A stretch of 64,000 nt of DNA from contig OY365818.1 in NCBI GenBank assembly GCA_959347315.1, positions 2,193,722-2,257,721 of the forward strand, given 5' to 3'. Each line of letters starts with the position of its first letter. The stretch's first letter is position 1. The DNA is from Bimastos eiseni (Eukaryota > Annelida > Clitellata > Crassiclitellata > Lumbricidae). The notes below the pieces were generated by a model. It had not been told where the DNA came from. It ran no database searches and was given only the letters and a program-made list of their open reading frames with translations. Positions 16,569-63,254 of this stretch are shown one piece after another. The position numbers and the translations under genes were made by a program.

Positions 16569-16682
16569 CTATTGCCTTGACTTTTTCTTTGGCTTGTCTC
16601 TCTGTCTTTGTTCAAGCGACGCATATTCGTTCACGTCTTTATCTTCTCCCAAACTTGCATAGGCTGACTCTTGTTCTCCAGC
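16569..16682 (-). CDS. Unit A terminal exon, ITAM-like tail
   Basis: After a ttgtag acceptor it encodes AGEQ then ESAYASLGEDKDVNEYASL and a basic tail EQRQRDKPKKKSRQ with a TAG stop. Two YxxL motifs are separated by eight residues, fitting D/E-x2-YxxL-x(6-8)-YxxL. The motif is intact although the unit is broken. Confidence 0.75.
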   Translation of the reverse strand, partial: AGEQESAYASLGEDKDVNEYASLEQRQRDKPKKKSRQ

Positions 16683-16850
16683 CTACAACAAAACTCAAAA
16701 TAGCTCTAGAACTGTCTTAAATTGGACGAATAAGTAAGCCTAAGAACGTTAATCTCAATAAGTTGCCCAAGATTATTTATGCAGATATAGGCCAAAGGCA
16801 GACGAAGAAATAAAGAAACGTAGTCGACTTCATTTTCTTAGCCACGGCAT

Positions 16851-17080
16851 ATGAGTGTGGCACAGTGGCCGATTGGTCAGAGCAGTCGGCCTGTAACGCG
16901 TAGAGTGCGGGTTCAACCTCATCCGAGGAGTCACTGTGTAAGGACCTTGAGCAAGTCCCTCACGCACAATTATTGCTCTGCATTACAACTGCAGCTGCGC
17001 CGTCGAGGCGTGTGTGCACTGAATGTTAGAAGGGCGACATCAAATAAGAGTTGGATTGTATTGTGTGATTGCGGCTGGCC
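16851..17080 (+). mobile_element. tRNA-derived SINE
   Basis: The head has an A-box-like tggcacagtggccgattggt and a B box ggttcaacctc near 16910-16920. The body contains attgctctgcattacaactg. Copies are at 31010-31265 (minus) and, as a fragment, 10240-10370. It lies in the intron between the last two exons of unit A. Confidence 0.7.
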
Positions 17081-17441
17081 AGCCCTCTCTCGCGACGTAC
17101 CATCTTCCCAGCGACGGTGCAAGTGCAGGGGGCCCATCGTAACAGAGCTGGCCCGAGCGTGCAGATAGAGTCGAATGATCGATTTCACCTCTGACCTTTA
17201 GATTCACACAATTCAGACTGTGAGACAAAACACTAATAAACAAAACTACTTTTGGATGTCTGTATATAACTTCTTCTCACTTCCTGATTATCACGAGTGC
17301 ATTGAAAGCGTATCTGTTTTTTTATAGGACCTACTACATTTATTTCATTAACCTCTGATTGTGATTGTAAAGTTAGACAAAGGTTGGTCTTGCAAAAAAC
17401 GTGTCTGTTTCTGTTCGGAATGCAATCAACAAATGACTTAT

Positions 17442-17536
17442 TAATGAAGTATATGTCCTAGGAATTGACCGATCCACATTTGATCGTTGATGAGACGAAG
17501 GACTCATCTCACGATCCACACTCTGCGCAGCGCCAT
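17442..17536 (-). CDS. Unit A cytoplasmic exon
   Basis: Encodes GAAQSVDREMSPSSHQRSNV and DRSIPRTYTSL. The frame is open, but the donor position reads ATAAGT, so normal splicing to the terminal exon is probably lost. Confidence 0.65.
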
Positions 17537-17572
17537 CTATCAAACAAATACATATGGCTACAAATACCATAA

Positions 17573-17700
17573 TCATTATTATTATTATTACTTTTACTAT
17601 AACTTTTATTACTATTATTAGCATTACTTTGACTATTATTATTATGTTGTTAATAATGATATATATATACACACATATGTGCATATAATATATATATATA
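17573..17700. repeat. ATT / TA microsatellites
   Basis: Imperfect ATT run followed by atatatata just upstream of the unit A cytoplasmic exon. A polypyrimidine ATT-type tract occurs at the same place in units B and C. Confidence 0.85.
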
Positions 17701-18518
17701 TATACACGCAGGAAAAAAACCCAGTGTCACCCTCAACGAAATCCTACACGATGCTAAATGGCATCAAGTAGCCTATGCTAAAGAGCATTTCTAAAAAAGT
17801 AAATACTGATAAGAGATACCGATTATAAACTATTTTGTGGAACTCCGAAGTTATATGTGTTTCATTACTTCTAATTACTTTCTTTATATCGCTATTATGT
17901 TGGAAAGTTATCTATTATAATTATTATTATTATTATTATTATTATTATAATTATTATTATTATTATTGTGGCGGACAGGCCACAAGGCTTGGATTAAAGA
18001 ATTTGTTCGTAATTAATCGGCTCGCCATAGCGCTTAATTTACGTACATTTTCTTACAGTGTTGGTATTGGAGGGAAGACCGATCGGCGGTTTGTAGTTCT
18101 GTGCATAGCGTGCAGACGCATGAATCGGGTTGAGTATAGCCTGACATGCGGTGCGTCGCTTATATTGTAGAGTGGTGACGACTGCTCTGCATATACGGTG
18201 CATTGAATTCCTTGGTTAGCGATTAATACCGCACACCCGTGTGGTCGGTGAGCGTTCGTTCAAAGCTTGGTTCACGGCAAGTTGCGAGAAAATATAGTTG
18301 CGGACGAGAGGGCGTCCAAAAAAACTAGTCCGAGCTACAGCCGAGCGTCTGGTGTTGAGACCGACTCTGCCGATCTGATAGGGCTGGGGCCCCACCCTGT
18401 TATCGATCGCGAGAAAGTCTGCAGCCGATCGTGAGGTTGCTTCCTCGGGAAGGTCCGACAGTGAAATAAATAAATCACAGGTCTGTGTAAAGACCGGGTA
18501 AAGCCCGGGTTAGCCGTT

Positions 18519-18770
18519 CGCATATACCAAGAGAGGCCTCGGCGGCCGACAGTGAGACAGACTGGGTGAGTCCCAGAAGGGACCGACCGCATATACCGAG
18601 AGAGGCCTCGGCGGCCGACAGTGAGACAGACTGGGTGAGTCCCAGAAGGGACCGACCGCATATACCGAGAGAGGCCTCGGCGGCCGACAGTGAGACAGAC
18701 TGGGTGAGTCCCGGAAGGGACCGACCGCATATACCGAGAGAGGCATCGGCGGCCGACAGATATATAGACT
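18519..18770 (+). repeat. 69-bp tandem repeat, about 3.6 copies
   Basis: Units start cgcatatacc at 18519, 18588, 18657 and 18726 and contain gagaggcctcggcggccgac. The period is a multiple of three, so frames stay open on both strands, but the translated repeat has no known domain. Confidence 0.88.
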
Positions 18771-18935
18771 GGGAAAAATCCCCGACCGCGCAGACCGTGA
18801 GAAAGTTTTGGTAACCAAGAAATATAAATGTTGGCTACCTAGATCGGTCATAGTTAATCCTCGCGTTTTCCAGCAGGTTGTCGGATACGCAAAAGTTCCG
18901 GGTGGCCGAGACCGAGAAAATTAGGGTGGCCGCTA

Positions 18936-19092
18936 GAAATACGGGGAAAGTTTCCCATTGAATACGTTCGATAAATACGGGGAAAGTTTCCCATTGAATA
19001 CGTTCGATAAATACGGGGAAAGTTTCCCATTGAATACGTTCGATAAATACAGGGAAAGTTTCCCATTGAATACGTTCGATAAATACGGGGAG
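18936..19092 (+). repeat. 36-bp tandem repeat, about 4.3 copies
   Basis: Unit includes ggggaaagtttcccattgaa and tacgttcgataaatac. The gggaaagtttccc core is itself palindromic. Confidence 0.88.
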
Positions 19093-19186
19093 GGTGACCC
19101 CCTTGGTGCTTACGACGATTACAAGAAACGGTCGTGACTGGTGCCGAAGACCTCAATAATTGCGGCTGTTGCCTCATCTTCTTTTC

Positions 19187-20443: not shown

Positions 20444-20484
20444 CAATGTGTTCTCAGGTCCTTTCAACTGACCTTCTTGTGCAT
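20444..20484 (-). pseudogene. Unit A truncated V-like exon
   Basis: Only AQEGQLKGPENTL is left after the acceptor. The homology to the unit E exon breaks off at 20444, next to the ATT tract bordering the LTR-like element. Confidence 0.8.
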
Positions 20485-22534: not shown

Positions 22535-22615
22535 CTACCTTTGTTCCAGCGAAGCATATTCGTTCACGTCTCTATCTTCTCCCAAACTTACATAAGCTGA
22601 CTCTTGTCCTCCAGC
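22535..22615 (-). CDS. Unit B terminal exon, ITAM-like tail
   Basis: Encodes AGGQ, then ESAYVSLGEDRDVNEYASL, then EQR and TAG. The first motif also fits the ITIM form SxYxxL. The basic tail present in A, C, D and G is cut off by the stop, as in unit F. Confidence 0.78.
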   Translation of the reverse strand, partial: AGGQESAYVSLGEDRDVNEYASLEQR

Positions 22616-25600
22616 CTACAATGAAGCGCACAATAGCTCGACTACTGTCTTAATTTGAACGAATAAGTAAGGAAGTTAATTTTAATAAGTTACATATTTT
22701 TATTTATTCAGATGTAGGCCAAAGTCAAGCGAAGAATTAAAGAAACGTTGGCGACTTAATTTTCTGACCCACGGCATATGAGGAAGGCTGGCCAGGCCTC
22801 TCCCTCGACGAATCATCTTCCAAGCGACGGCGCAGGTGCAGAGGGGCTCAAGATCGTGGCTCAGTTGTTCAGGGAGTGCAGATGGATTGGATAATCGAAA
22901 CATCGCAGGGATTTAACCTGTGAGTTTTCGATTCCCATAGTTCAGACTGTCGGGCAAAACACTAGTCAACAACACTTTTTGACGTCTGTTTACTTTCCAG
23001 ATTTCCACGTGCGCATTGAAAGCGTATAATGGCATTAATCTTTTTTTGTGATTATAACGTAAGATAAATTTAGTTCTGGCCAAAGCAGTGTTTGCTTCTA
23101 TTCTGCAATTAAACAACAAATAACTCACTAATGAATTGTGTGTCCTAGGAACTGACCGATCCACATTTGATCGTTGATGAGACGAAAGACTCATCTCACG
23201 ATCCAAACGCTGCGCTCCACCATCTACCAAACAAATATAAATGGCTACAATAATAATAATAATGACAATAATAATAATGATAATAATAATAATAATAATA
23301 ATAAACATAATAATAATAATGTTAATATTAGTAATAATAATAATAATAATTATTATTATTATTGCCAATATTAATATAATTATCATTATTAACATTATTA
23401 TTATTATTTTTATTATTATTATTATTTTTATTATTATTATATTATTAATGATAATATATTATATAATAATAAAAATATAAAAGAATTATAATAATATAAT
23501 ATAATAATAATAATATAATTATTATTTTTTCCCCGAGGTACATATGATCCCTCGGGATTCAAAAAATTATTGAGGCATTATTATTAATTTATTATTATTA
23601 TTACCATTATTCTATTATTGCTATTAGGAAATAAATGCAGCACTACTAAAGAACAATATTAGGCGTCACCCTCAACGCAGTGCTACACGAAGTCAAATGT
23701 CATCAAGCTCATAGTATTTCTAAATTAGAAAATATCGATGAGATACCCGTCTTGGCATTCAGATTACGTAGTTGTTTGTGGCGCTCTGAAATATAAATGT
23801 GCCATATAATTAACTGTTTACTTCTCTGATGTCAATATACGTGGGAAGCTTTTATGGCTATTATTAAAATGCGACTACAGCCCTACGGGGTGTCAGCAAT
23901 GCAGAAGGCTATTAAAGTCATTATCAAATTATTTTCCCTAAATACTATAATGATTATTATGTAGCTAATTTGAACTTCAAACGTTGTATATAGCGACTAT
24001 GTACCCTACTCTTTTGTGTATGTTAGTATTAAAATGTTTGATAACATGTAGGTTTCCTACCGATAAGCTCTTTTGCTGGCCTCGGATGAAACTCAAGGTA
24101 TTTGAGTTTGACCAAGATGGCAATGACAATGGTGGCTATTAGGATGGCAACTGTGAGACCAATTCCAACACCGATTCCAACACCGATTCCAACACCGTTT
24201 CCAACACCGATTTCAAAGCGATCTGATGAGTAACAAAAAGTTTAGACACGACATTATTAGGCCTATCTCATTCAGTGCAACGTTTATTGAAGCATCTTTG
24301 GATTACGCTGGTGTAAGACTGATATGTGTTGGTTCGACAAGTAAATAGCTGTTAACATTTATAACGCGACAGAGTCATATTCAAGATTTATATAGGATTA
24401 TAGTCATACACCAAAAGGAAAAATGGCTAATCACTAAAAGAAGACATCTGTGTGAAATAGGCCTACTAAGCACTAGAAGCATTGCAGGCACTGCTCACAC
24501 AGGTCTACGCCAAGGAAGAATGGTGTAATAGAAAGTGAGTGGTCAAAAAGGGTAGCGGGTACAAAAGCCTATCCATATAATTATTACGTACACAAAAAAG
24601 TCGGATTTCCGGACCCCCTCCCTATGTTGCAAGCGTACATTTCGTGGACCCTCCCTCCATGCGTACGTACATTTGAGCTCATTGCAAAGGTTAAATAGTC
24701 AAAAACATCTTTAAGACATTGATTTTACCACAGGCTATTTATTTCTGTTATGGCATCATATTTAACAGCTTAAATCTGTTAACAGTTATGAAGAATTAAA
24801 ACACTGCAACAAAAAATTGCATTTGAAACCGTTTTAATACTACATAAAATTGATTTAGCAGGAATATAGTCTGTGATTAGATTTACAGTTTTGATTTTTA
24901 TATTCTGTATTGTGCACGTCATACTTAGACAATTATATTTGCGTACGTACATATTTTCTGGACCCTCCTCCCACACCTTACGCACCCGTGCGCAAAATGG
25001 CCGAAATTTGAAATCCCCCTCTCCCCTCTGCACCCCTCTCCGCGTATGTAATATGTGGACTGCCCCGACTATAACGGCGCTAAGGCAGACTTTAGAACAG
25101 GGCCTATATCAAAATTTTAGTCCTTGTCACTGGAGTAAGTGGAGTGACTTGTTGGCTAGGATATCTCTGCACAGTTAGTGAAAAGAGATAGAAGGAAACA
25201 GAATTCAATTAAAAACTTAATGCAAGAAACGCACCACTAGACCTACCAGTGTTGTTAACCTGGAACTCGTCTGAAGTTGCATTGTATCTGTTGCCCCTCA
25301 CGACATTCATTGCAACACATCTGTATCGTTTTGAAGTGACAACACTCAAAGTAAATAAAATTATACTATCATTCGGATTTTGAATATCCAACCAAATGCC
25401 ATTGGCGTCCGTTTCCTGCCATTTGAAAGTTGGTGATGGATGTCCATTTGCAGTGCAGGTCGTTGGAGTCCCTGGAGGGTGATTGGAATACGATGGCGAT
25501 AAGGTGACACTTCTTACTGAATCTGAAACAGATTTTTGGACAAGGTTCGTAACTGGATTTTAAATTTATATAATGTCAATTCAAGCGAAACTCATAAAAG

Positions 25601-28600
25601 TTCTCTAGAATATCAAAAGACGACACCACAATGCAACAGAATGGTCCTCAAGTGTCAGAGTTGCTAGACAAATAGAGGCTGAGAAGCTCATACCACAGAG
25701 TGAGGTGGAACTTATTACAGAAAGGTGGATGGGCCGAACACATGAAAATGAAGATCATTTCTACTGAAGACCGGTTGGCAGTCAATGCATGTTAGGAGGA
25801 AACAGATGATGAGCAGAGATAATTTTTATTTTCATGACAACATCGATGCAAGTGAAATAACTCAACTTTCAAATATTCAATAACAGGGTTCAGTTAAGAA
25901 TTTCTTGAAAACATACAGAAATGAACATTTACAGCATATCTGAAAAAATATCAATGAAATACTTACAGAGGACTTTGATGGTAGGTGTTGCACAAGTGGT
26001 TCTTGGAATGTTTGCAGCCATACCTTGAATCGTTTGCCCGTTATCTTTAGTAACAACTGGAAATGACGTGATGCAGGTGAATGATGGAACTTCAGGAACA
26101 GAAGCATCAATGGTAAAAGAACGACTTATGCATCCTCCATTTACTACAACATTCGGAGCAACTGTCACTCCTTCCCAGATCATCGTTGGTGTGCTTGTTC
26201 CATTGAATGACACCGAACAGTTCAGCTGCACTTGATCTCTTTCGACCACGTCATTCAGAGACGCAGTTGTACATTGAGGTTGCGTATCTACAGAAGCACT
26301 TGAATATAAGGAAAAAAATTAAAATATCAGAATGTCATAATAAAACTTCAGCAACAGCGAATCTTAATAATATAACCAATAGGCCAAGTTATACTGTTGC
26401 TAACGTTTAATTTCATAATTCTGTTCTTGTTACAGACTGAGAGATCTGTATCCTAAATGTTTGGGAGAGAACAGCCATTCCTGAAAATGACTCAGCTGTA
26501 TGATGATGACCAAAAGCATTGGTCCATTGGCTTTACGCCAATCGGGAATGAGATGAGTGAAGTGGTTTCCCATTGCCTTCCCCACAGACAATTTTATGGG
26601 TGAGCAACTTGTCCAAGGTCGGTATACGCAGTGACTTAAGGTGGATTCGAACCTGCGACCATTCGGTCGCAAGGCACAAAATCTGCTGCTACTCCAGCGC
26701 GTCTCATTTCAGCTGCATGGTCTAATGAATTGATGACTAATAGCTCGATCATGTACTGGCTAGTATGCATTGTCAATCCTCTCGATTGACAATGGGGGAG
26801 ATTCAAAACCCACCATGGCAGAAATTTAGTTCGACAGTTCGGCTCCATCTGCACTCCTATAGTGGCCAACCAGGGGTGTAACAAACGGGGGGTGCAGAGG
26901 GGGGGCACCGGCCCCCCAGTTTTGAAACTGGCGAGGGTAAAGCCCCCCAGTTTTAGTGCTCAGTGCCCCCCATGTGGCCCCCAAATCGGTTCTTTTTTTA
27001 TGTTTATCCAATGGATTTTTAAGAATACTTTTGTTAAGATAATTTGTGCCCCCCATTTTTCAAATTTCTGGGGGAGGGCAAAGTTCAAAAAGTGGGAGGG
27101 CAATATTTTTCAAATGATGCCCTCCACTTTTCAAAACCTTGTTACACCTCTGTGGCAAACTCATCCAAAATGAGTATACTGATCGTACGCTGCCGGTGGG
27201 AAGATGAGAAGGAGAGGACCTGCCACCAGTTTTCGTATGCCGAGACTGATAGTTTAAAGAAGTCCCCGATACTTCACAACCAAGAAATCAACCAAAAATA
27301 AAGAAGGTGGGGATAGTTTGAAAAATTGAGTCAACCATGTGAAAACTTTTTTGCTAATTAGAAGTATGCAATAACAAAATGCTATAACTTGCCATGCATC
27401 GGAGGTTCTTCACTGCGATGATTACTGTCTAAATAACCCGACCCCAGTATATAATTAGATATATGTCGATATATGTATACGAATACAAGCGCCTGCATAC
27501 GGATATAGACCATGTCTCTCCACATAACAATGAAAACAAACCTGCATTCAAATACTGAGTTAACTAAATTGTGACAAAAGACTCTGTATGAAACATACAT
27601 GTAGGTCAAAGAAATCAGGTGTAATCTATGCTACAGTTATATTTGCTCTGTGCAAATAATTCTATACATAATAACATATATAATATCGGTTTTCTCCTCT
27701 GTTGGTAATGCTACTAGGGTCCCTCCTTGTGACAAAGAATGAGTATGAAACATAGGTAAAAGAAATCAAGTGTAATATAATGCTACAGTTATATTTGCTC
27801 TGTGCAACTAATTCTATACATATTTAATATATATTTTCGATTTTTCTCCTCTGTTGGTAATGCTCCCAAAGGGGGCCCTTCTAGCTGGATTTCAATCCCT
27901 TTGAGATCCCTTGGTAGTCTTTACTTTTATAATTGATGTTCTTTATCTTTGCCTTGAGCAAACTGTTTGTTGTGGCTACAAATAAACAAATTGATTGATT
28001 GACATGTATATACATAAATATACACACAAATATCACATACATTGTTACAGATACATTACATAGACCAGCATAAATCCATTGCACATGGGAACTTGAGAAG
28101 TAAATTACGTGACTTAGGTTACACAGAAAATAGGATTCGCTTGAAAAATAACGTACCCAGTATAATAAGATAAGCAGTTTTTGAAATCTGATCTCCTGGA
28201 ACGATAGCGATACAAACGAATCGTCCGGCGTCTTTCCGTTCAACGTTTATAATAACCAAATCACAACCGGATGAATTGTCAATACTGTATCGATCTTTAT
28301 AATCGTTAAGTATGCCCCGGTCATCTCTGAAAATAGTCGTCAGGGAATCAGAACCCTGTTTCAGCCAGTCAATTCCACGACAGCTTCTATACGGAGATGC
28401 ACATATCAAGTTCACGTTTGAGCCAACAACGCCCAGTGTGTTGTTGGGTCCTATCACCTGACTTTCTTGTGCATCTACAAGGAAGTAGAAAAACAATATG
28501 TTTAAGTTGTAATAATCGTCACTTAAATTGAATTCCAATCAACAACTTGTGAGCTCAAAGACAATCTAACAGTGGCAAAGAAACCAGCAAGCAAGAAGAC

Positions 28601-30486
28601 TAAGACAGATAACATTAAAGTTAGTACAAAGAGCAATAACTGGACAGAACATGTAAGAAATGATTGAAATTGATTTCACTCAAAGCAACCATTGATAGCA
28701 ATGTATTGTAAATATTCAAAAACATTCCCAGGTTCAACAAAAGCCACGTCGGCTTATTTATACACTTGAAAAAACGGTTTCTGACTTTAATTGCTGGATT
28801 TAATAGAAGCTGGATTGATGAAATGATTTTGACTAGGAGGTGGATTAATGACAACATTTGATGAAAAACTGCCCTTTAACTGAAAACGGGAATGATGAAA
28901 AGATTTTAACTAGAGGGTGAATTTCTTCCTAAGTGGAAGGCTGGAAGCGGGATTGATGAAAAGATTTATGTTTAACTAGAAGCGGAATTATGAAAAGATT
29001 TCTGTCTAATTGGAAGCGGGAATGATGAAAAGATTTCTGCATAGTTGGAAACGTGAATGACGAAAAGATTTCTGTTTAACCAGAAGCTGAATTCTGAAAA
29101 GAATCATGCAATCCAGGAAGGAGTAAAGTGCGATACCTAAATGCTTAGAATGTCAAGATGATTTACTTACCCGCATGCGTAAAGAGAAACGGGAACACAA
29201 TAATTGTCAGGGTCATCCTAAGGCGGTTATTTATATGGAAGGCATCGAATAGACAACATTGCTTCAACCGTTTTTTCAACATCGTTCTAATTAATCAAAA
29301 CACTCTCTTTACTTCGTTTCAGACGTTTAGTCAGATTTCCCGCCAAGACAGACATTTGAATTCAATTTACATGCTGCGTATTGGCTGTCTCTTTTAAAGC
29401 GCTTCATTCTTCTACAATATGGCAAAGAGAAATCTATGTTATTCTACACATAGGGCCAATGCACTGTTACCTATTGATGCAGCATAATTTCTAGCCTACG
29501 CCGGCAGCGTCCAATTCGCTCGCGAGATCATTAGTTTTACGATGACGAATACAGAAACAGGAACCGCGAGCAGATATCAAAGGGTAGCCTAAGTGCAAAA
29601 CAACATGTACGATTAACACGCACATCTGTTCTATTAGGGAATTGCCGCCGAGATCCGAGATCGCAACCTCTGGTAACGATCGCTTGTTTGAGCCGCTATG
29701 CATACAGCTACCCTTATATCCAGCTGTATGCATAGCGGCTCAAACAAGCGATCGTTACCAGAGGTTGCGATCTCGGATCTCGGCGGTAAAGAGATGTGTT
29801 AACCAATAACTACGTTCCTTTGTTTATACATGTGTCTTAATTAACGCGTCCGATTTGCTGGATGACAAACTGGAAGGAGCGGTTGAGACTAGGGTTTCCA
29901 ACTCTGAACAACCCCATTGAGTGACAAGCCCCAAACCTGCGATGTTTTCCCGCATTCCGCCAGGTTTACGAAGTTACGAGTTTCGAATGGTGTTCGAGAC
30001 ATTGAAACTTTCGAATTCTTAATTGAATTGTTTAGTGCATTTTTTCTAAAATCTGTAGCAACCAATTTTATACATTGGGTGCCCTTGTATCAAATTGGCT
30101 GCTTTCCATAATTAATCGCAACGGATGATACAAGTAAATTATCGTATACATCCTCGAGAGTCGAGACGGTTACTTGTCTGATCTGGTATTGCTAGACCAA
30201 GCATTATTAGAGACACTTTTTTGCTACATTTACCTCACCAAAAATGGTCATATTAGCATGAAGATCAAAATACAGCCTCGTTGAAAATGTCTGCTTTCAA
30301 TCTTTCCTATTGTGCCATTGCATGACAAAACACATGTAGTTCAAAGTAGCTAGAAATATCATACACTAAAACGATTTTTGAAACAGCCTCTAATATTTAA
30401 ATGCATGAGACGTGATCATGAATCATTAATATCCACTTGCCTGTAGCAGTAGCAGTGAGAAGGGTTACGATAACGATATGATCCAT
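22535..30486 (-). CDS. IgSF receptor unit B: three Ig domains, transmembrane segment, ITAM-like tail (intact)
   Basis: Predicted cell-surface type I receptor of 432 residues. Exons in order: leader 29216-29171 (or alternative leader 30486-30441), V-like 28474-28157, Ig2 26287-25967, Ig3 25522-25247, stalk/TM 24222-24061, cytoplasmic 23223-23129, tail 22615-22535; 1299 coding bases in total. All junctions are phase 1 except the last (phase 0). Residues 16-121 form a V-set domain (C40, W52, DAGRFVC to C103), 122-228 and 229-320 two more Ig domains, 337-358 the membrane span, and 411-429 the motif ESAYVSLGEDRDVNEYASL. By analogy with ITAM receptors the two tyrosines would be Src-family substrates that recruit SH2 proteins. 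The tail is short because a stop follows EQR. It is the only unit of the array open in every exon. The ligand is unknown. Confidence 0.8.
23129..23223 (-). CDS. Unit B cytoplasmic exon
   Basis: Encodes GGAQRLDREMSLSSHQRSNV and DRSVPRTHNSL. It is Ser/Arg-rich and hydrophilic with no tyrosine. It starts in phase 1 and ends in phase 0 at a gtgagt donor. Confidence 0.75.
23245..23640. repeat. Long (AAT)n/(ATT)n microsatellite
   Basis: Imperfect AAT followed by ATT, giving self-complementary halves, beside the unit B cytoplasmic exon. Confidence 0.9.
24061..24222 (-). CDS. Unit B stalk and transmembrane exon
   Basis: Encodes a Gly-rich repeat (GVGIGVGIGVGIG) leading into LTVAILIATIVIAILV, then the stop-transfer KLKYLEFHPRPAKEL. 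No charged residue lies in the membrane span, so pairing with a charged adaptor is not required. Confidence 0.8.
24575..25060. repeat. Candidate degraded DNA transposon
   Basis: Short words gcgtac(gtac)at and tggaccctcc recur at 24600-24680 and 24940-24970, and an acgtacacaaaaaagtcgga word stands at the left. This resembles the ends of a decayed transposon. It lies in the intron between the Ig3 and TM exons of unit B. The family is not identified. Confidence 0.3.
25247..25522 (-). CDS. Unit B Ig3 exon
   Basis: I-set-like domain: TPTTCTANG (first Cys), TFKWQETD (Trp) and SKRYRCVAMNVVRG (second Cys). Two residues longer than the paralogues. Phase 1 at both ends. Confidence 0.82.
25967..26287 (-). 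CDS. Unit B Ig2 exon
   Basis: Ig domain with QLNCSVSFNGTST, MIWEGVTVAPN and EVPSFTCITSFPVV marking strands B, C and F. NCS and NGT are likely N-glycosylation sites. It has further cysteines at SQPQC-like and CATP positions that recur in the paralogues. Confidence 0.82.
26440..26830 (-). mobile_element. tRNA-derived SINE, second family
   Basis: On the minus strand a B box ggttcgaatcc lies near 26640-26655, next to ttgcgaccgaatggtcgcag. The gaagtggtttcccattgcct block belongs to the body. It sits in the intron between the V and Ig2 exons of unit B. Confidence 0.5.
26871..27152. mobile_element. hAT-like MITE with 8-bp target duplication
   Basis: Ends are caggggtgtaacaa and ttgttacacctctg, inverted copies differing at one base. 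They are flanked by tggccaac and tggcaaac, an 8-bp target-site duplication with one mismatch, as expected for hAT. The 282-bp interior of C and G runs has no coding capacity. Confidence 0.78.
27590..27870. repeat. Tandem duplication of about 130 bp
   Basis: Two copies of a block with caagaaatcangtgtaat-like start, tgctacagttatatttgctc and ttctcctctgttggtaatgc, in an intron of unit B. Confidence 0.7.
27875..28010 (+). mobile_element. LINE 3' end fragment
   Basis: Ends gctacaaataaacaaattga ttgattgac, the (ATTG)n type tail seen after other LINE fragments in this window. No protein remains. Confidence 0.4.
28157..28474 (-). CDS. Unit B V-like Ig exon
   Basis: Encodes NVNLICASPYRSCRGIDWLK, then KDRYSIDNSSGCDLVI and DAGRFVCIAIV. 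Canonical Cys-Trp-Cys are present plus two additional cysteines (RSC and SGC). The donor is gtacgt. Confidence 0.85.
29171..29216 (-). CDS. Unit B leader exon (type 2)
   Basis: MTLTIIVFPFLFTHA, a hydrophobic signal peptide ending phase 1 at gtaagt. It joins the V exon as THA-DAQ. Confidence 0.75.
29645..29786. repeat. Perfect 65-bp inverted repeat with 12-nt loop
   Basis: 29645-29709 is exactly complementary to 29722-29786. The loop is acccttatatcc. The arms begin ccgccgagatccgagatcgc and end catacagct. The flanking sequence is shared with unit C's leader flank, but the palindrome is not. Confidence 0.93.
30441..30486 (-). CDS. Unit B alternative leader exon (type 1)
   Basis: MDHIVIVTLLTATAT, phase 1. 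The intron begins GCAAGT instead of GT, a permitted GC-AG donor. Homologous to the leaders of units A and E. Confidence 0.6.
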
Positions 30487-32218: not shown

Positions 32219-32332
32219 CTAAGGCCTTGTCTTTTTCTTTGGCTTGGTTATCTGCCATTGTTCCAGCGAGGCATATTTGTTCACGTCTCTATCTTCTCCT
32301 AAACTTGCGTAGGCCGACTCTTGTCCTCCAGC
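32219..32332 (-). CDS. Unit C terminal exon, ITAM-like tail
   Basis: ESAYASLGEDRDVNKYASL followed by EQWQITKPKKKTRP and TAG. Glu before the second Tyr is changed to Lys; both YxxL cores are kept. Confidence 0.72.
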   Translation of the reverse strand, partial: AGGQESAYASLGEDRDVNKYASLEQWQITKPKKKTRP

Positions 32333-32788: not shown

Positions 32789-32883
32789 TAATTGAAATTC
32801 TGTCCTATGAACTGCGCGATCCCCATCTGGTCGTTGATGAGACGTAGGACTCGTCTCACGATCCACATTCTGAGCACCACCAT
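32789..32883 (-). CDS. Unit C cytoplasmic exon
   Basis: Open: GGAQNVDRETSPTSHQRPDG and DRAVHRTEFQL. Donor gtgagt. Confidence 0.65.
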
Positions 32884-47008: not shown

Positions 47009-47239
47009 TACGGATTACATCGAATAGACAGCATCGCTTCCACCGTTTTATCAACATCGTTCTAATCGTTTAAATTAAATTTTCCTCCAAGACAATTACA
47101 ATGTGAAGACAATAAATTCGCTGCTCATTCACTTTCTCTTTTAAAGTGCTGCGTACTTTCTATAATATAGCAAAGAGAAATCTATGTTATATACACATAG
47201 GACCAATGCACTGCTACTTATTGATGCAGGATACTTCCT

Positions 47240-49401: not shown

Positions 49402-49671
49402 CTGTGTTGTTGACCAGGAACTCATCTGAAGTTGCATTGACGTGCTTTCTCCTCACGACATTCATTGCAACACATCTGTACTGCTTTGAACTGACAACAC
49501 TCACAGAAAATTTACTATCATTCTGATTCTGAATATCCATCCAAGTGCCATTGGCGTCCGTCTCCTGCCATTTTAAAGTTGGTGATGGATCTCCCTTTGC
49601 AATGCAGGTTATTGGAGTCCTTGGAGGCAGATTGGAATACGATGGCGATAAGGTAACATTTCTAACTGAAT
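49402..49671 (-). CDS. Unit E Ig3 exon
   Basis: Open: TPITCIAKGDPSP, TLKWQETDANG, SKQYRCVAMNVVRR. Phase 1 at both ends. Confidence 0.76.
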
Positions 49672-52502
49672 CTAAAACAGATTATTAGACATAACTGGAA
49701 TGAGTATTTGTACAACGTCACTTCAAGATGAAGAGTGTGTAGGTCTCAAAACATGAAATAAAATGCAACAGAATTGATAAAGGAAAAATGAGGCTGAGGA
49801 GTTCATACCACAGTTTGTAATGCCACTTACTTGAAAACTATGGATAGGCCGACCACAGGAAAAATACTATGCAAGATGGTGAAATAACGAGTCATGGAAA
49901 ATCAAAGTCACCATATGCAGACCATGATTTTCTGTCCGTGCTCATCAATTTATTGCACGAAATAGTTCAGGTTAATGCATCTTAGAAAAAAATAGATGCT
50001 ATAGTACCGATCATTCTGATCTGCATGCAAAGAATGATGAAAATTAAATTCTTCAACTTATCAAATGTTCAGTTATATTATCCCATAATGAAGTTCTTGA
50101 AGACAAATGGAAATGAGCATTCTCAACATTATCAACAGTTTCAACGAAATACTTACAAAGGACTTTGATCGTCGGTGTTGCACAACTGGTATTTGGAATG
50201 TTTCCAGCCAAGCCTAAAATATCTCTTCCATCATTCGCTTTATTTGCAACTCGAAATGATGTGATGCAGGTGAATGATGGAACTTCAGGAACGGAAGCAT
50301 TAATGAAAAAATAACGACTTATGGTTCTTCCATTTACTACGCCATTCGGTGCATCTGTCACTCCTTCCCAGACCATCGATGCTGTGCTTGTTCCATTGAA
50401 TGACACAATGACACACAATGACACCGAACAGTTCAGCTGCAATCGATCTCGTTCGACCACGTCATTCAGAGAAGTAGGTGTCGTATTACATTGAGGCTGA
50501 CTGTCTATAAAAACACATCATATAAAGAAACAATTGAAATATCAGAACATCATTACAAAACTTCAGCAAAATCATCTCGATTGACAGTCAAATCCCAGCG
50601 AGGACAGAAATTTAGTTCAACAGTAATGTGTGCTTCGGCTATAACGAGTATACTGCTGGTGGGAAGATGACACGGCGAGGATGACGTGTGGCCTGGCTGC
50701 TTTCGTATACTGAGGTCAAGAATATAATGAAGTCGCTAACCATCAATACCAAGAAGAAATTTTTCAGTAAATGTTGATCCACCAAAGAATCAGCCAAAAA
50801 AAGAAGATGGGGATAGTCTGAAAAATTCAGATCCAAACATTGAAAACCATTTGGTTAATTGATTGTATGCAATAACAAATGCCATCTCTTGGCGATGGGT
50901 AGGGTCTCCATTGTGAAGATTACTCTCTGAATAACCCTAACCCAGTATATAAGTAGAGATGCGAGTATATGCATACAAATTCATACACTGACATACGGAT
51001 AAACATCATGTCTCTCCACACACTAATTAAAACACATACACTGAGTAACTAAATTTTGACAAAGACTATGTCAAAAAAATCATGCATAGTATATATTACA
51101 GTTATATTTGCTAAGTGCAAACATATGTAATATATATATACAGTACATACATAAATTCATTATACAATACATGGGAAGTAAATTATGTGACTGAGGTTAC
51201 ACAGAAAAATATAACTCACCCAGCATAATAAGATAAGCAAATTTATCGATTTGAATTCCTGAAACGACAGCTGAACAAACGAATCGTCCGGCGTCTCCCA
51301 GTTCAACGTTTCTAATAACCAAATCACAACCGGATGAATTGTCAATGCTGTATCGATCTTTATAATCGCTAAGTATTCCCCGGCCATCTTTGAAAATAGT
51401 CATCGAGGAACTAGAACTCTGTTTCAGCCAGTCAATTCCACGACAGCTTCTATATGGAGATGCACATTTCAAGGCTGCGTTTGAGCCAGCAACGCTCAAT
51501 GTGTTCTCAGGTCCTTGCAACTGACCTTCTTGTGCATCTACAAGGAAATAGAAAAGCAATATGTTTTACTTATTATAGTGGTCACTAAGTTTAATTTTAA
51601 CCAACAACTTGTGAGACAGACAGATCAAAGACAAACTGACAGTATCAAAGTAACCAATAAGTAGGTTGACAAAGACAGATAACAGTCGTGCAGTGGTTAA
51701 TTGGTAATCGGTCGGCAAAACAGGATGTGTTCGTCCAGCCAACATGCGAAACCATTCAGGCAGTTGCCAACCAAGACAAAGTCAACAATCCTCTCTATCC
51801 AGGATACGCAGAAGGCGTGAGATACCCTTCATGACGACGCATTCGAGTTGCGCTAGCAGAATATATCCCCCTCAGGGCTGCTACCCTGACTTCGACACGA
51901 TTTGTCGTTCAGATCGAACAAATATAAGGAATTTCTTAGTAGACTCACAATGCAGACTTTATGAATGGACTCAGTTTCACTTTCTATCAAACAAAGTTGA
52001 CCAGTCGGTATATTTTTCATTTTCAAGATTCTGATATAAACTGTCTTGGCTCTCCAGCAGCAAGTTAGAGATGACCAGCAACCACTTGCAGTAGCGCAAC
52101 CCTTTATGAAATGGGCAGCGTAAAAAGTATTCAGCTATTGCCTCATTGTGGCTCGATATGTAGACGATTCAAGCAAATTGTCGTATCCTCAAAACAGCTA
52201 CTTCTTTGATCTAGAATAGCAAGATCAAGCTTTATTAGAGGCATACGGTTCTTCAGGAAATTATCATGAAGATCAAACTCCACCTCGTTAAACATGTCTT
52301 TTTCCACGTTTCTCTACTTTCCATGGCTCCTTTAGTGCTGTTGCATGACCAAGTACATATAGTTCAACCTCAAAGTAGCTAGAAATTGCATACACTAAAA
52401 CGAGTTTTGAAAACAAAATCTTATATTTAAACGCATGAGCCGTAATCATGATTCATTAATATCCACTAACCTGTGAGATATTGCGAGAACGATAAGTTCC
52501 AT
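49402..52502 (-). CDS. IgSF receptor unit E: intact three-Ig ectodomain, no membrane or tail exons
   Basis: Exons: leader 52502-52471 (damaged), V 51537-51220, Ig2 50504-50157, Ig3 49671-49402. V, Ig2 and Ig3 are open with correct phase-1 boundaries. The type 1 leader has an 8-base internal deletion, so it ends in phase 2. No TM, cytoplasmic or tail exon exists between 49.4 and 47.0 kb; the next in line on the same strand are those of unit D. The unit could be a recombination remnant, or supply its domains to unit D's 3' exons by splicing. Its 5' flank (51.5-53.9 kb) is almost the same as 20.4-22.8 kb. Confidence 0.68.
50157..50504 (-). CDS. Unit E Ig2 exon with a 15-base insertion
   Basis: QLNCSVSLCVIVSFNGTST: the five residues LCVIV are an in-frame insertion made by local duplication of a tgtcattgtg-like word, right after strand B. 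It adds an extra Cys. Otherwise like unit F. Confidence 0.76.
51220..51537 (-). CDS. Unit E V-like Ig exon
   Basis: AALKCASPYRSCRGIDWLKQ, YSIDNSSGCDLVI and DAGRFVCSAVV: intact V-set domain with the two extra cysteines. Donor gtgagt. Confidence 0.82.
52471..52502 (-). pseudogene. Unit E leader exon (type 1), 8-base deletion
   Basis: MELIVLAI then a changed ending. It is 32 bases long against 40 in unit A and ends in the wrong phase. Confidence 0.75.
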
Positions 52503-53828: not shown

Positions 53829-53909
53829 TTACCTTTGTTCCAGCGAAGCATATTCGTTCACGTCTCTATCTTCTCCCAAACTTGCGTAGGCTGACTCTTG
53901 TCCTCCAGC
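53829..53909 (-). CDS. Unit F terminal exon, ITAM-like tail
   Basis: AGGQ, ESAYASLGEDRDVNEYASL, EQR and TAA. Short tail as in unit B. An AATAAA follows at 53525-53520 (minus). Confidence 0.76.
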   Translation of the reverse strand, partial: AGGQESAYASLGEDRDVNEYASLEQR

Positions 53910-54402: not shown

Positions 54403-54497
54403 TAATAACGTTTGCGTCCTAGGTGTTGAGCGATCCACATTTGATCGTTGATGAGACGAAGGACTCATCTCTTGAGCCACGCTCTGCGCAGTGCCAT
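54403..54497 (-). CDS. Unit F cytoplasmic exon
   Basis: GTAQSVAQEMSPSSHQRSNV then DRSTPRTQTLL; gtgagt donor. Confidence 0.72.
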
Positions 54498-54946: not shown

Positions 54947-55084
54947 CGAGAGACTCTTTAGATGGCCTGGGATGAAACTGAACGCATTTGAGTTTGACCA
55001 AGATGGAAATGACAATAGTTGCCATTAGGATGGCACCTATGAGACCAATTCCAACACCGATTCCTAAGCCAATTCCCAAGCGAT
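54947..55084 (-). CDS. Unit F transmembrane exon
   Basis: DRLGIGLGIGVGIG, LIGAILMATIVISILV, KLKCVQFHPRPSKESL. Donor gtaaga. Confidence 0.76.
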
Positions 55085-55573
55085 CTGCTGCGTAACAAAA
55101 AGTTTACACATGACATTATTAGGCCTATCTCATTCAGTGCAACGTTGATTGAAGCATCTTAGGATTACATTGGTGTAAGACTGATATGTGTTGGTTCAAC
55201 AATGAAATAGCTGTTATCGCCAATAACGCGATAGAGTCCTATTCAAGATTTATATAGGCTTATAATTATACAGTGAATGAAAAATGCTCACAGAAGACAG
55301 CTGTATTAAATAGGCCTACTAAGCACTAGAAGCAATGCAGGCACTGCTCAAACATGTCTACGCAAGGGAAGAATGGCATAATAGAAAGTGAGTGGTTAAG
55401 ATATGTAGCAGGCACAACTACAACGGCGCAATAGAAGATCTTAGTCCTTGTCACTGGAGTAAGTGGAGTGACTTGTTGGCTAGGATAGATCTGCGCAGTT
55501 AGTGAAAAGAGATAGAAGGAAACAGAATTCAAATAGAAACTTAATGCAAGAAACGTACCACTATGAGGCCTAC

Positions 55574-55843
55574 CTGTGTTGTTAACTTCGAACTCGTCTG
55601 AAGTTGCATTGTATGTTTTGCCCCTCACGACATTCATTGCAACACATCTGTATCGCTTTGAAGCGACATTATTCACAGTAAATTCGCAGCTCATCTGATT
55701 CTGAATATCCACACAAAAGCCACTGTCTGTCATTTCCTGCAATTTAAAAGTTGGTGGTGGATCTCCCTTTGCAATGCAGGTTATGACACTTCCAGGAGGG
55801 AATTTGGAATGCGATGGCGACAGAGTAACGTCTCTAACTGAAT
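55574..55843 (-). CDS. Unit F Ig3 exon
   Basis: Open: VITCIAKGDPPPTFKLQE, CEFTVNNVASKRYRCVAMN. The C-strand Trp is Leu (FKLQE) and there are two additional cysteines (GFC and SCEF). Confidence 0.75.
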
Positions 55844-56458
55844 CTGAAACAGATTTACAAACAAGGCACATAACTGGAATTGAAATTTATATAATGACAA
55901 ATCAAGAGAAGCTCATAAGGATATCAGAACACGAAGCCGCAATGCAACATAACGGTCTTCAAGGCTGTGTCAGAGGTACTGGAGGAACAGATGCTGAGGG
56001 GTTCACACGACAGGTTGTCATGCACACTATTCCAGAGAGAAGGATGGGGCGTGGGCGACTGCACAAAAACTGAAGATCAATTTGACTAATCACCTTCGGC
56101 AATTAATGCAGGTTGCAAAAAAGCAGAGGATGTACAATTGTGTACACAGCTCATTCTGATCTGCATGTTAACATCGATGCAAATTAATTTACTAAAATTT
56201 CACATACAATACAACTAAAATTTATATCGCGCCTTAATAAAGAGAGTTTTGCTTAAAGGACGCGTTCCAAAAACAGTTCATCAATCGTATTTGAGAATTT
56301 ATATAGCGCCTCTCACGGAACAAGCTATTCAGAGGTTCATTTCGGTGTCATTTTAAGCAAAGTACAGATGATCAGCTACACAATTCAACTAAGAATTTCT
56401 TTAAAAAAACTGAAATGAACATTCTCAACATTTTCAACATTATCAATGAAATACTTAC

Positions 56459-56788
56459 AGAGGACTTTGATCATCGGTGTTGCACAACTGGTATGTGGAG
56501 TGTTTTTAGCCAAACCTACAAAATCTGTTCCACTACTGTCCTTATTTGCAACTGAAAATGACGTGATGCAGGTGAATGATGGAACTTCAGGAACGGAAGC
56601 ATAAATGAAAAAATAACGACTTATGGTTCGTCCATTTACTACGCCATTCGGAGCATCTGTTACTCCTTCCCAGACCATCGATGCTGTGCTTGTTCCCCTG
56701 AATGACACCGAACAGTTCAGCTGCAATCGATCTCGTTCGACCACGTCATTCAGAGAAGTAGGTGTCGTATTACATTGAGGCTGACTGT
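56459..56788 (-). CDS. Unit F Ig2 exon
   Basis: Open: QLNCSVSFRGTST, SMVWEGVTDAPN, SFTCITSFSVAN. Donor gtaagt. Confidence 0.76.
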
Positions 56789-57508
56789 CTATAAAAACAC
56801 ATCATATAAAGAAACAATTGAAATATCAGAACATCATTACAAAACTTCAGCAAAATCATCTCGATTGACAGTCAAATCCCAGCGAGGACAGAAATTTAGT
56901 TCAACAGTAATGTGTGCTTCGGCTATAACGAGTATACTGCTGGTGGGAAGATGACACGGCGAGGATGACGTGTGGCCTGGCTGCTTTCGTATACTGAGGT
57001 CAAGAATATAATGAAGTCGCTAACCATCAATACCAAGAAGAAATTTTTCAGTAAATGTTGATCCACCAAAGAATCAGCCAAAAAAAGAAGATGGAGATAG
57101 TCTGAAAAATTCAGATCCAAACATTTAAAAACCATTTGGTTAATTGGTTGTATGCAATAACAAATGCCATAACTTGGCGATGGGTAGGGTCTCCATTGTG
57201 AAGATTACTCTCTGAATAACCCTAACCCAGCATATAAGTAGATATGCGAGTATATGCATACAAATTCATGCACTGACATACGGATAAACATCATGTCTCT
57301 CCACACACTAATTAAAACACATACAGTGAGTTAACTAAATTTGGACAGAGACTCTGTCAAAAAATCATGTATAGTATATATTACAGTTATATTTGTTAAG
57401 TGAAAACATATGTAATATATATATATATTCAGTACATACATAAATTCATTATACAATACATGGGACGTAAATTATGTGACTGACTTTACACAGAAAAATT
57501 TAACTCAC

Positions 57509-57829
57509 CCAGGATAATAAGATAGGCAGATTAATGGGTTTCAATTCCTGTAACGAGAGAGGCACAAAGGAATCGTCCGGCGTCTCCCAGTTCAACGTTT
57601 CTAATAACCAAATCACAACCGGATGAATTGTCAACGCTGAATCGATCTTTGTAAGGATCATTTATTATCCCACGTTGGTTGAAAACAGTCATTGGGACAC
57701 TAGGATTAATATAACGCACCCATTCAATTCCATGACAGCCTCTAGATGGAGATAAACATTTCAAGGTAATAATTGAGCCAACAACGCTCAGTGTGTTCTC
57801 AGGTCCTTTCAACTGACTTTCTTGAGCAC
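57509..57829 (-). pseudogene. Unit F V-like exon with a late nonsense codon
   Basis: ITLKCLSPSRGCHGIEWVRY, FSVDNSSGCDLVIRNVEL and DAGRFLCASLV are all present. TAA follows GIETH, ten codons before the donor. Confidence 0.82.
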
Positions 57830-58559
57830 CTAAAGACAAACAGAAAATGTTACACAGTTACAATGGTGATCATTTTAGTCTAATTCTACTCAACAAGTGT
57901 ATTGCTCATCGATTTTGATTTGATTAAGCGACTGTGAATTAGCTGGTTCTCGCTACGTCGCTCTGTGGGCGCTGTAGAAATGATTACGATTACGATTACA
58001 CAGACATGGACAAACTCAGATAGTGCAAGAATACGATGACAGATACTATTAAAGTTGATGCAAGGAACAAAAAACTGATATAACATGCAGGAAGTTGTTA
58101 CAAGCGAAGACCCACATATGTTTGATCATAAGCAGACCCATCATCAAGTGTATTGGTAACGTGTCTGCATTTGGGTTGACCATTGGATGACCATTGGAGG
58201 GTTCAGTATTAAAGTGTAAGCTCCTTATGCTCCCATTTCCCAAGACTGAACTTGTGGAGCAGTTTGCTGACAGGCACTTAGTCAAAACGTGGTTTTGAAA
58301 TAGCTTTGCTAGGGAATAATGACACCGAATTTGATTTCACATGAAGAAACCATTGATTAATTGTTTCTGCAATCTGCAAATTGCATTCGATTTTAATATT
58401 GGCTTAGATAACAATTATTACCATGATTGGTTACAGATCTAAGTGTACACGCTAGGTTGACTGGTTATGACGGATGGAGTTTTGGCTCAGCACTTGGTAA
58501 ATAAAGTAGCAACTGAAGACAGTTTCAAAAGCACTTGCATATTGTACAGACTCACTTAC

Positions 58560-58607
58560 CCGAATGCGTAAAGAGAAACTGGAACGTGATAATTGTCAGG
58601 CTATTCG
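58560..58607 (-). pseudogene. Unit F leader exon (type 2), start codon lost
   Basis: Same ATAG change as at 46961-47008. Confidence 0.7.
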
Positions 58608-58884
58608 TACGGATTACATCGAATAGACGACATCGCCTCCACTGTTTTATCAACATCGTTGAAATTGACTAAAACTTTTGCTGCACTTTGTTGTAATCGT
58701 TTAGATCAGATGTTCCGCAAATACAACGAAATGAAGACAATTAATAGGCTACTCATTCACTTTCTATTTTAAAGTGTTGCGTACTTTCTATAATATAGCA
58801 AAGAGAATTCTATGTTATATACACACAGGGCCAATGCACTGCTACTTATTGATGCAGGATACTTCCTGGTCTACGACACACACA

Positions 58885-58917
<33 letters not shown>

Positions 58918-61255: not shown

Positions 61256-61639
61256 TCATTAGGAATGATTATTACTTCTGTATGAGGCCCGTAGAGCACG
61301 GCAGACCATTGTCAAGCAAGGATAGTGATTTTACAGCTAACTCAGTTTGATGGATCTGAAATACCACAGGAAACCTCAGCCAAATTTCAAGGTGCATGCA
61401 TTGATGAACCCGCTGTTTGTCATTAATAAGGATGTTCGTTAAGATATTAGTTTAAAACTGTAACTCCTGTATATCGTCTCTGTGTGCAGGCCAGCCAACG
61501 GGGGCATGGGTGGAAAATGCCGAGGGGTCCTCTTGTGTTAGTGTTGGTGTGTTTGTGACTCATATCCTGTAGGTCTGTTATTAAATGGTCTTCGATGAAA
61601 CTTCAATTGATTTCATACATATCTTTCATCTAACCACTG

Positions 61640-61800
61640 TGTATGTATACATGTATGTATTTATGTATGTATGAATGTATGTCTTGATGCATGTATGGAT
61701 GTATGTATATATGTATGTATGTATACATGTATGTATGTATGTATGTATGTATGTATGTATGTATGTCTCAATGTATGTATGTATGTATGTATGTAGCGTT
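61640..61800. repeat. (GTAT)n microsatellite
   Basis: Imperfect tetranucleotide gtat/gtatgtat repeats. Confidence 0.92.
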
Positions 61801-61974
61801 TTCTGTTATTGAAGCATTATAATATCTAGTTAAGAACTAAAACTGTAAGCTAACATTGAATTGTATAAGTTACTCAACACTTCCTACTAGCATATTCGGT
61901 GGTGCTTAGTGATCCTGAGGAAAGAGCTTGCTCATGATTCATATAAAAAAAGTTAATAACAGAAATTGATTGCA

Positions 61975-62225
61975 CGTGGTGCTATTTAACAACACCCATG
62001 CGACACACCTATAAATTCCCACTAATTAGCGTTCACACGAGACCTATTTATTAAATTTTTGATTGCCCTTATGTCCACAGTTAAGGATTTCGCTTCATCG
62101 ATATAGCATTTGCGTATTGTATTCTGCACTTGTAGCATTTAGTGAGTTAGTATTGGCTGCTGGTCTAAATGTTTATAACTTAGATTGACATAATTATTAT
62201 TGGTGATATGTTTCCACTATTACCA
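61975..62225. repeat. 3' flank of unit G, homologous to 15830-16200
   Basis: See the entry at 15830. It links the first and last units of the array. Confidence 0.6.
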
Positions 62226-62395
62226 GGGCCGCCGACAGAAATTCTGGGCCCAAGGCAGGATAGTCACGGGTCTCTAAGTTGTCTATAGGCTTTATGATCA
62301 ACTTTATTTTGGGCTCAGTACGGGCCCCTAGAAAGTTTCCGAGCCCCAGGGCATTTGCCTCTACCCTCCTCTCGTCGGGCCTGTCTAAAACCAAT
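62222..62395. repeat. Candidate interspersed repeat, gggccgccgacag
   Basis: GC-rich island with ccagggccgccgacagaaat, attctgggcccaaggcagg and tcgtcgggcctg blocks in AT-rich DNA. It looks like a small transposon; the ends are not resolved. Confidence 0.3.
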
Positions 62396-62434
62396 TAAAT
62401 AGTGTTCCGATCTCGCCGCAAACAACTCCGTCTC

Positions 62435-62670
62435 GTAAACGAATGCAAAAAAATTTAATAATTATTGTAATTCCTTGCGTTAACTCCGTAAAGTTCCTTG
62501 GTATCCAGATTGATCAGCTTCTCCCATGGAAGCAGAAAACAAAACGGTGTAGACAGAAGGAATTTATTGCTTATCACCGATTTCAAACAAGTAAAAGTCT
62601 AATGTTATGTAAATTTTATGCAATTTTAAATGTGTGTAGTAAATCATCTTCAAAACCTGCCTCATAAATG
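62435..62670 (+). mobile_element. LINE reverse transcriptase C-terminal fragment
   Basis: The plus frame has NSVKFLGIQIDQLLPWKQ, the usual V-K-x-L-G-x-x-I-D motif after the RT catalytic region. It is followed by sequence similar to 39940-40200. Confidence 0.6.
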
Positions 62671-62897
62671 CCTAGGCACAAGTATGCATTCATTGCGTCA
62701 TTATTATTTATACATGACTGCTTATTAATTTTTTCAAGCCAACACACACCACGTTGTTATTGCATTAAATTGGTTGCTGCCGATTTGAGATAAAAATGCA
62801 TGAAGCAATATAAAGGAAACTTTCTCCTTTAAGTAGAAATCGTGCGTTCACAACTTCACATATAGACACGACCGTGAGATTCTTGAAAATATTCTTC

Positions 62898-62939
<42 letters not shown>

Positions 62940-62940
62940 G
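62898..62940. repeat. (TA)n microsatellite
   Basis: About 20 TA units. Confidence 0.92.
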
Positions 62941-63140
62941 AATATATATGCATACAGGCCTATTAAGAATTGAGATAATCGTAAATATGGTCATGGTTTC
63001 AAGACAAGTTACAAATTGAAATTGAAGGAGAAATATCCCTCGATGAGAAAGTAATATACTTTTGGTGTCACGCCATTAATATTTTTGCTCACTCTAACAT
63101 CAAAGTATATTTAGGCCATCGCATATGTGCGCAAAGTTGA

Positions 63141-63254
63141 CTAAGGCCTTGAACTTTTCTTTGGCTTGGCTATCTGCCTTTGTTCCAGCGAAGCATATTC
63201 ATTGACGTCTCTATCTTCTCCCAAACTTGCGTAAGCTGACTCTTGTTCTCCAGC
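63141..63254 (-). CDS. Unit G terminal exon, ITAM-like tail
   Basis: AGEQ, ESAYASLGEDRDVNEYASL, then EQRQIAKPKKSSRP and TAG. Closest to unit A in its first residues. Confidence 0.76.
   Translation of the reverse strand, partial: AGEQESAYASLGEDRDVNEYASLEQRQIAKPKKSSRP

Follow-up and report, generated by a model that had tools for sequence, protein, structure and literature searches.

Clustered genes of the immunoglobulin superfamily (IgSF), with phase-1 immunoglobulin (Ig) exons and tyrosine-bearing tails, are known from the vertebrate Siglecs, Fc receptors and KIR/LILR, and FcgammaRIIA is a precedent for a single chain that carries its own immunoreceptor tyrosine-based activation motif (ITAM). 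Among invertebrates, as described in excerpts of the papers cited here, tails with an immunoreceptor tyrosine-based inhibitory motif (ITIM) and hemITAM tails are found on the FcoRs of Botryllus, and such motifs on alr candidates of Hydractinia (PMC12065747); the oyster protein CgIgIT2 combines five Ig domains with an ITAM, and the Alr family is given as having 41 members (PMC11999971). Syk homologues with ITAM-binding SH2 domains are reported to be restricted to invertebrates having CARD-CC/Bcl10, and an ancient ITAM/Syk pathway has been proposed (PMC5978004). The locus analysed here belongs to the lumbricid annelid Bimastos eiseni and lies partly in a stretch of 64,000 nucleotides (hereafter the window; C13:2193722-2257721, contig OY365818.1) of a genome with 660,451,143 bases in 118 contigs. 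It appears to be a tandem array of genes for type I membrane receptors of the IgSF, the last exon of which encodes an ITAM-like tail with two tyrosines that is under purifying selection, while part of the predicted ligand-binding V domain looks diversified.

Tail exons

All six terminal exons of the window are present where the original prediction had placed them and lie on the minus strand, which it had not stated. Each has an AG acceptor immediately 5' and an in-frame stop.

16569..16682, minus strand: tail exon of the degenerate unit U7
22535..22615, minus strand: tail exon of U6, AGGQESAYVSLGEDRDVNEYASLEQR followed by the stop
32219..32332, minus strand: tail exon of U5
41181..41294, minus strand: tail exon of U4
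53829..53909, minus strand: tail exon of U2
63141..63254, minus strand: tail exon of U1

The translations, together with inspection of the acceptors and stops, bear out the predicted motif and its spacing, YxxL-x8-YxxL. The six tails read ESAY(A/V)SLGED(R/K)DVN(E/K)YASL, with at most one change in 19 residues relative to ESAYASL-x8-YASL: ESAYASLGEDRDVNEYASL is the exact translation of the U1, U2 and U4 exons, and the single changes are E>K preceding the second tyrosine in U5, A>V following the first tyrosine in U6 and R>K in the linker in U7. The strict ITAM regular expression gave eight matches outside low-complexity sequence in six frames of the window, six of them being the terminal exons; 20 first-order Markov sequences averaged 1.7 matches each (range 0-4).

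A genome-wide DNA search with the tail exon of U7, in which diverged copies can be missed, found 11 tail exons, all on one strand of C13 at 2.210-2.315 Mb (within ~105 kb), six of them inside the window; the six tandem copies predicted earlier are all real, but six is an undercount. The strict consensus D/E-x(0-2)-YxxL/I-x(6-8)-YxxL/I is satisfied by 11/11 tails. Y8, L11, Y20 and L23 are invariant among them, positions +1 (A/V) and +2 (S/C/R) of the first motif are variable, and the linker G-E-D/N-R/K-D-V-N-E is conserved, its last E being found in 10/11 tails and replaced by K in U5. The first motif also fits the ITIM consensus S/I/V/L-x-YxxI/V/L in all 11 tails, as had been noted for SxYxxL, whereas the second has N at -2, outside the consensus, in 11/11.

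The motif is present in the broken units U2, U4, U5 and U7, as claimed, although the tail of the heavily decayed U5 is already changing, with both E>K and R>W. Because of these changes, persistence of the tail in broken units probably reflects earlier selection and recent duplication rather than selection on the broken copies.

Selection

By the method of Nei and Gojobori (NG86), the pooled ratio of nonsynonymous (dN) to synonymous (dS) divergence was 0.10 for the tail (six units), 1.1, 0.82 and 0.71 for Ig1, Ig2 and Ig3 (five units each), 0.49 for the transmembrane (TM) exon (four) and 0.61 for the cytoplasmic exon (six). Tail dN was below dS in 15/15 window pairs (ratio 0.02-0.17). The same pairs differ at 3-10 of 78 tail sites, at 14-29% of the adjoining intron and at 6-33% of the 3' flank. 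Mere recent copying as the cause of tail conservation disagrees, in most pairs, with the intron divergence and dS; U2 and U6 look recently duplicated or converted.

Codon models were fitted by maximum likelihood to 11 units for the tail, 10 for the cytoplasmic exon (U4 excluded for its deletions), 10 for Ig2, nine for Ig3 and eight for Ig1 (D, U4, U5 and U7 excluded), the broken units U2, U3, B and others being kept wherever the exon could be aligned. For the 11 tails, omega (dN/dS) was ~0.16, with twice the log-likelihood difference (2dlnL) from omega 1 equal to 23.3, and with the five intact units only it was 0.28 (2dlnL 4.4). The tail is under purifying selection, and the dN/dS comparison that the original prediction had proposed for the terminal exons supports their constraint. 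The corresponding 2dlnL values were 0.21 for the cytoplasmic exon, 9.25 for Ig2 (omega below 1) and 0.02 for Ig3. Scanning Ig1 gave pN 0.278 and pS 0.090 for codons 31-50, and pN 0.145 and pS 0.061 for codons 76-95, near the last cysteine; part of the V domain looks diversified, in a pattern like that of V-domain binding loops. The tests use short exons, kappa fixed at 1 and trees built from the same data, and gene conversion would violate them; since the copies are non-independent and gene conversion is likely, the figures serve as guides only.

Organisation of the array

A complete unit has seven exons: leader, V-set Ig1, Ig2, Ig3, TM, juxtamembrane cytoplasmic exon and tail. A search of the window with the exons of one unit revealed the repeated minus-strand order Ig1-Ig2-Ig3-TM-cytoplasmic-tail, with a leader upstream in several units. 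U6 is the sole complete unit within the window (gene 29282-22535, seven exons, six GT-AG introns, exon end phases 1,1,1,1,1,0, open frame of 454 residues), U1 crosses the window edge, U2, U4, U5 and U7 are broken and U3 is incomplete. Besides the tails, the window contains:

17442..17536, minus strand: U7 cytoplasmic exon, with AT in place of the donor GT
20444..20470, minus strand: U7 Ig1 stub; only this stub, the cytoplasmic exon and the tail remain of U7
23129..23223, minus strand: U6 juxtamembrane cytoplasmic exon, phase 1 to 0
24061..24222, minus strand: U6 transmembrane exon
25247..25522, minus strand: U6 Ig3 exon
25967..26287, minus strand: U6 Ig2 exon, fold model of modest confidence
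28157..28474, minus strand: U6 Ig1 (V-set) exon
29171..29282, minus strand: U6 leader exon, in-frame ATGs at 29282 and 29216, hydrophobic by Kyte-Doolittle only
32789..32884, minus strand: U5 cytoplasmic exon
34008..34091, minus strand: U5 TM remnant
34590..36982, minus strand: remnants of the U5 exons Ig1-Ig3, the first two with stops
41640..41725, minus strand: U4 cytoplasmic exon
42199..42384, minus strand: U4 TM exon
43082..45198, minus strand: U4 Ig1, Ig2 and Ig3, Ig1 frame shifted and its first Cys replaced by Tyr
45920..46012, minus strand: U4 leader-like exon, TTG for ATG
46965..47057, minus strand: extra leader-like exon in the U3/U4 interval, with ATG
49402..51537, minus strand: U3 Ig exons, all open (Ig1 51537-51220, Ig2 50504-50157, Ig3 49671-49402); a leader, TM exon and tail were looked for in U3 and none was found
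54403..54497, minus strand: U2 cytoplasmic exon
54947..58656, minus strand: U2 leader, Ig1, Ig2, Ig3 and TM exons, one stop, in Ig1
63554..63648, minus strand: U1 cytoplasmic exon; the TM, Ig and leader exons lie past the window edge and are open (476 aa)

Sequence beyond the window was examined over C13:2257001-2517000, and array coordinates are counted from the window start. Upstream of U2 come A, B, C, D, E and U1, all of them tailed. An open reading frame and canonical splice sites are found in five of the 11 units with tails, namely A (472 aa), C (454), E (443), U1 and U6; in A, E and U1 the start of the TM exon was picked from two or three in-frame acceptors. In these five gene models a TM exon precedes the tail in frame, which predicts a cytoplasmic position for the motif. 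Units B and U2 are interrupted by stops; in unit D the TM exon has lost its donor, and the cytoplasmic exon its acceptor and donor alike. Divergent Ig1-Ig2-Ig3 units extend the cluster further upstream to ~223 kb, and no more Ig-unit matches were found in the 100 kb past this point, part of which is unreadable.

C25, W37 and C88, that is, the B-F cysteine pair and the core tryptophan of a V-set domain, are invariant in 14 aligned Ig1 exons; the broken Ig1 of U4 falls outside this alignment. A Pfam scan of U6 with E up to 1 returned Ig families only, and the best PDB matches are generic: Robo2 for U6 (1.5e-11) and pIgR residues 126-220 for an Ig1 profile (1.3e-16). When U6 was compared with a large protein collection, none of the 8000 candidates scored reached E <= 0.01; poor animal coverage is suspected, and this empty search is no evidence for uniqueness of the family.

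Blocks of ~97% identity occur at window positions 51497-52300 and 20444-20999, upstream of and into the Ig1 of U3 and U7, and show that the array has undergone duplication or conversion recently. The Ig1 of unit D (L011:7889-8242, minus strand) contains two alternative C-C' modules in tandem, QHYITSGPMTV and DWLKQSSSSSMTIF, an arrangement such as unequal recombination between paralogues would leave. The same open reading frame (ERGLLIVPFASTTTQQNRAFSVIGSSLWN...) is found downstream of the U2, U5 and U6 tails (window 53077-53334, 31508-31780 and 21784-22041, minus strand) and, judged by eye, has the appearance of a mobile-element end. Apart from the array, minus-strand exons at 9568-13874 of the window resemble, by eye, a class I cytokine receptor, with an Ig-like piece at 13874-13548, a C-x9-C-x-W module within 12709-13044 and an FN3-like piece at 9819-9568. 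Pfam gave Ig_3 (E 0.075) for the first of these three pieces and nothing for the other two, and a PDB search with 12709-13044 gave IL13RA2 only (E 0.21). Elsewhere in the genome, 35 COX1 matches were recorded with TGA read through; one on C118 covers the whole profile, as do six others on large contigs, and these six are apparently nuclear copies of mitochondrial DNA.

Divergent neighbours

Two of the divergent units have candidate related tails. Unit F (Ig1 at 150291 in array coordinates) gave a weak match to a profile hidden Markov model (HMM) (10.7 bits, E 0.17), which was then read by eye as a terminal exon with a phase-0 acceptor, VEERDSVYTCLREEEDPNVYEAF followed by a stop; it contains YTCL-x8-YEAF, the tyrosines being 12 residues apart. 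For unit G (157457), the candidate VEQGESGYVPMGQSNTKETFGYVDVQRPVSDTSSGSEFTS, also ending in a stop and containing YVPM-x10-YVDV with tyrosines 14 residues apart, was chosen by eye among 13 loose-regex rows from seven stretches, the other 12 being dismissed as unlike the tail. YxxM is a PI3K-type motif. If both tails are homologous to those of the 11-copy clade, the two-tyrosine tail would predate the strict ITAM form, which would be the version fixed in that clade. Four divergent units (139k, 222k, F and 157k; L016, L017, L018, L024) have a second type of TM exon with a cysteine-rich juxtamembrane part, and 139k, 222k and F a proline-rich cytoplasmic exon.

Candidate signalling partners

At least 120 SH2 matches with E <= 0.001 were found genome-wide. 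A search with an approximate human SYK sequence pointed to at least three clusters of Syk-like kinase exons (C11:2100017-2102188, C11:2121795-2123384 and C1:36237691-36238972), which have the highest identities (57-73% per exon) and each have a same-strand SH2 match upstream (C11:2112555, C11:2131677 and C1:36225008, respectively). A fourth Syk-like place is C12:26238118-26238644 (59-60% identity). When the matches are ranked by E-value, the top places go to other, long-exon tyrosine kinases (30-41% identity).

Possible function and alternative explanations

Taken together, these features suggest, with a probability of about 0.6, recognition receptors with a self-contained ITAM-like tail that activate the cell through a Syk-like kinase. 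The V-set domain with its variable loops, together with two further Ig domains, might bind an extracellular ligand; upon receptor clustering, a Src-family kinase would phosphorylate both tyrosines, which are spaced by 12 residues, and in this doubly phosphorylated state the tail would dock the tandem SH2 domains of the Syk-like kinase, thus starting the signal. The V domain may have been diversified by duplication and recombination, and we propose that selection preserves the tail because every copy has to feed into a single signalling pathway. We infer that the genes are transcribed and that their products reach the cell surface, are phosphorylated, dock Syk and have an activating output in an immune or allorecognition role. 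The original prediction of immune-type activating or dual receptors is supported as far as the IgSF genes with V-set and TM exons, the ITAM fit, the constrained tyrosines and the Syk-like exons are concerned; activation as such is only likely, and an ITIM also fits the first half of the tail.

Several observations weigh against the proposed receptor model. With its small residues at +1 and +2, YASL is as close to Siglec-type ITIM cores as to classic acidic ITAMs, if not closer, and position +2 of the first motif is occupied by C or R in copies D and E. The candidate tails of F (YEAF) and G (YVPM/YVDV) depart from the strict ITAM, and no tail was accepted for units 131k, 139k, 165k, 174k, 189k, 206k and 222k by HMM and loose regex (206k by HMM only), which is weak evidence of absence. 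As for selection, omega of the whole Ig1 is indistinguishable from 1 (2dlnL 0.23, eight units), the signal in Ig1 codons 21-55 (2dlnL 5.4, best omega 2-3) comes from a stretch chosen post hoc after the scan, and the values for Ig3 and the cytoplasmic exon, with omega near 1, show the relaxing effect of broken copies in the sets. Among the tailed units, six of 11 are broken. Stops interrupt three of the nine exon matches in the Syk-like clusters, and the assignment to Syk, made with one query and with one SH2 match seen per cluster, is tentative.

Activation via Syk is most likely, inhibition or dual output comes second, and sorting and decay are less so. In an inhibitory or dual receptor, a pair of ITIMs or similar switch motifs (ITSM) would recruit an SHP-type tandem-SH2 phosphatase, and the ligand would restrain the cell. 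The first half of the tail fits S-x-YxxL, and YASL is the core of Siglec ITIMs, but the second half, N-x-YASL, lacks a hydrophobic residue or Ser at -2 in 11/11 copies, and the 12-residue spacing is ITAM-like and below that usual for paired ITIMs. ITIM and hemITAM tails coexist in Botryllus, and such motifs occur in Hydractinia, according to the excerpt of PMC12065747. On balance we regard this explanation as possible, though rather unlikely. Improbable, in our estimate, is that the tail serves trafficking, YxxL acting as a YxxPhi sorting signal for AP-2 in adhesion or scavenger molecules that perform no immunoreceptor signalling. YASL fits the YxxPhi consensus, and YTCL, YEAF, YVPM and YVDV of F and G are likewise hydrophobic-ended; one YxxPhi, however, suffices for AP-2, for which a fixed x8 spacing and a conserved linker are unneeded.

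The broken units, the 3' flanks of U2 and U6, which differ by just 5.6%, and the 97% identical blocks by the Ig1 of U3 and U7 could also mean that the array is mostly dying and that its tails are relics in recent duplicates, alike through copying or gene conversion and not through constraint. Five fully open units, the excess of dS over dN in the tail in every window pair (ratio again 0.02-0.17) and the 14-29% divergence of the neighbouring intron argue against this explanation, which we consider the least probable of all. Scarcely more probable is a germline exon deck, in which transcripts would cross broken units and splice the exons of neighbours, dead units serving as exon reservoirs, so that the tail of one unit could serve the ectodomain of another. 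Splicing between units is conceivable because phase 1 is shared by the end of the leader and by both ends of the Ig and TM exons. Joined in silico, the U2 leader, U3 Ig1-Ig2-Ig3 and U4 TM-cytoplasmic-tail exons give an open receptor of 472 residues from broken or incomplete parent units.

Comparison with known systems

PMC12065747 and PMC5978004, as far as their excerpts go, touch on the question of when in evolution ITAM-type signalling and variable Ig receptors became linked. The present locus joins a partly diversified V-set domain, a selected paired-tyrosine tail and candidate alternative tyrosine codes in two paralogues, and Syk-like kinase exons occur in the same genome; because of this combination, it offers a natural test set for tail changes that switch SH2 partners. 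No publication tied to the locus was found in a literature search judged by titles and abstract starts.

Among the described systems, the Botryllus FcoRs, in the excerpt of PMC12065747, are similar in having a V-type Ig domain first, C2-type Ig domains, a TM segment, a tail with tyrosine motifs and a multigene locus, but differ in their sushi domain and in carrying an ITIM or hemITAM, whereas U6 has only Ig families in Pfam and a paired-YxxL tail. The oyster CgIgIT2 is likewise an IgSF receptor that carries its own ITAM; compared by description (PMC11999971, in excerpt), it has five Ig domains, as against three Ig exons per open gene here. The chitin-binding domain of VCBP was not found in the Pfam scan of U6, and the vertebrate ITAM/ITIM Ig receptors provide no close sequence relative of the array among solved structures. 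The Hydractinia Alr IgSF family is named as being of the same kind by description and not by sequence. The kind of receptor is already known from Hydractinia Alr, Botryllus FcoR and oyster CgIgIT2; what is new is this member and the contrast in selection between its exons.

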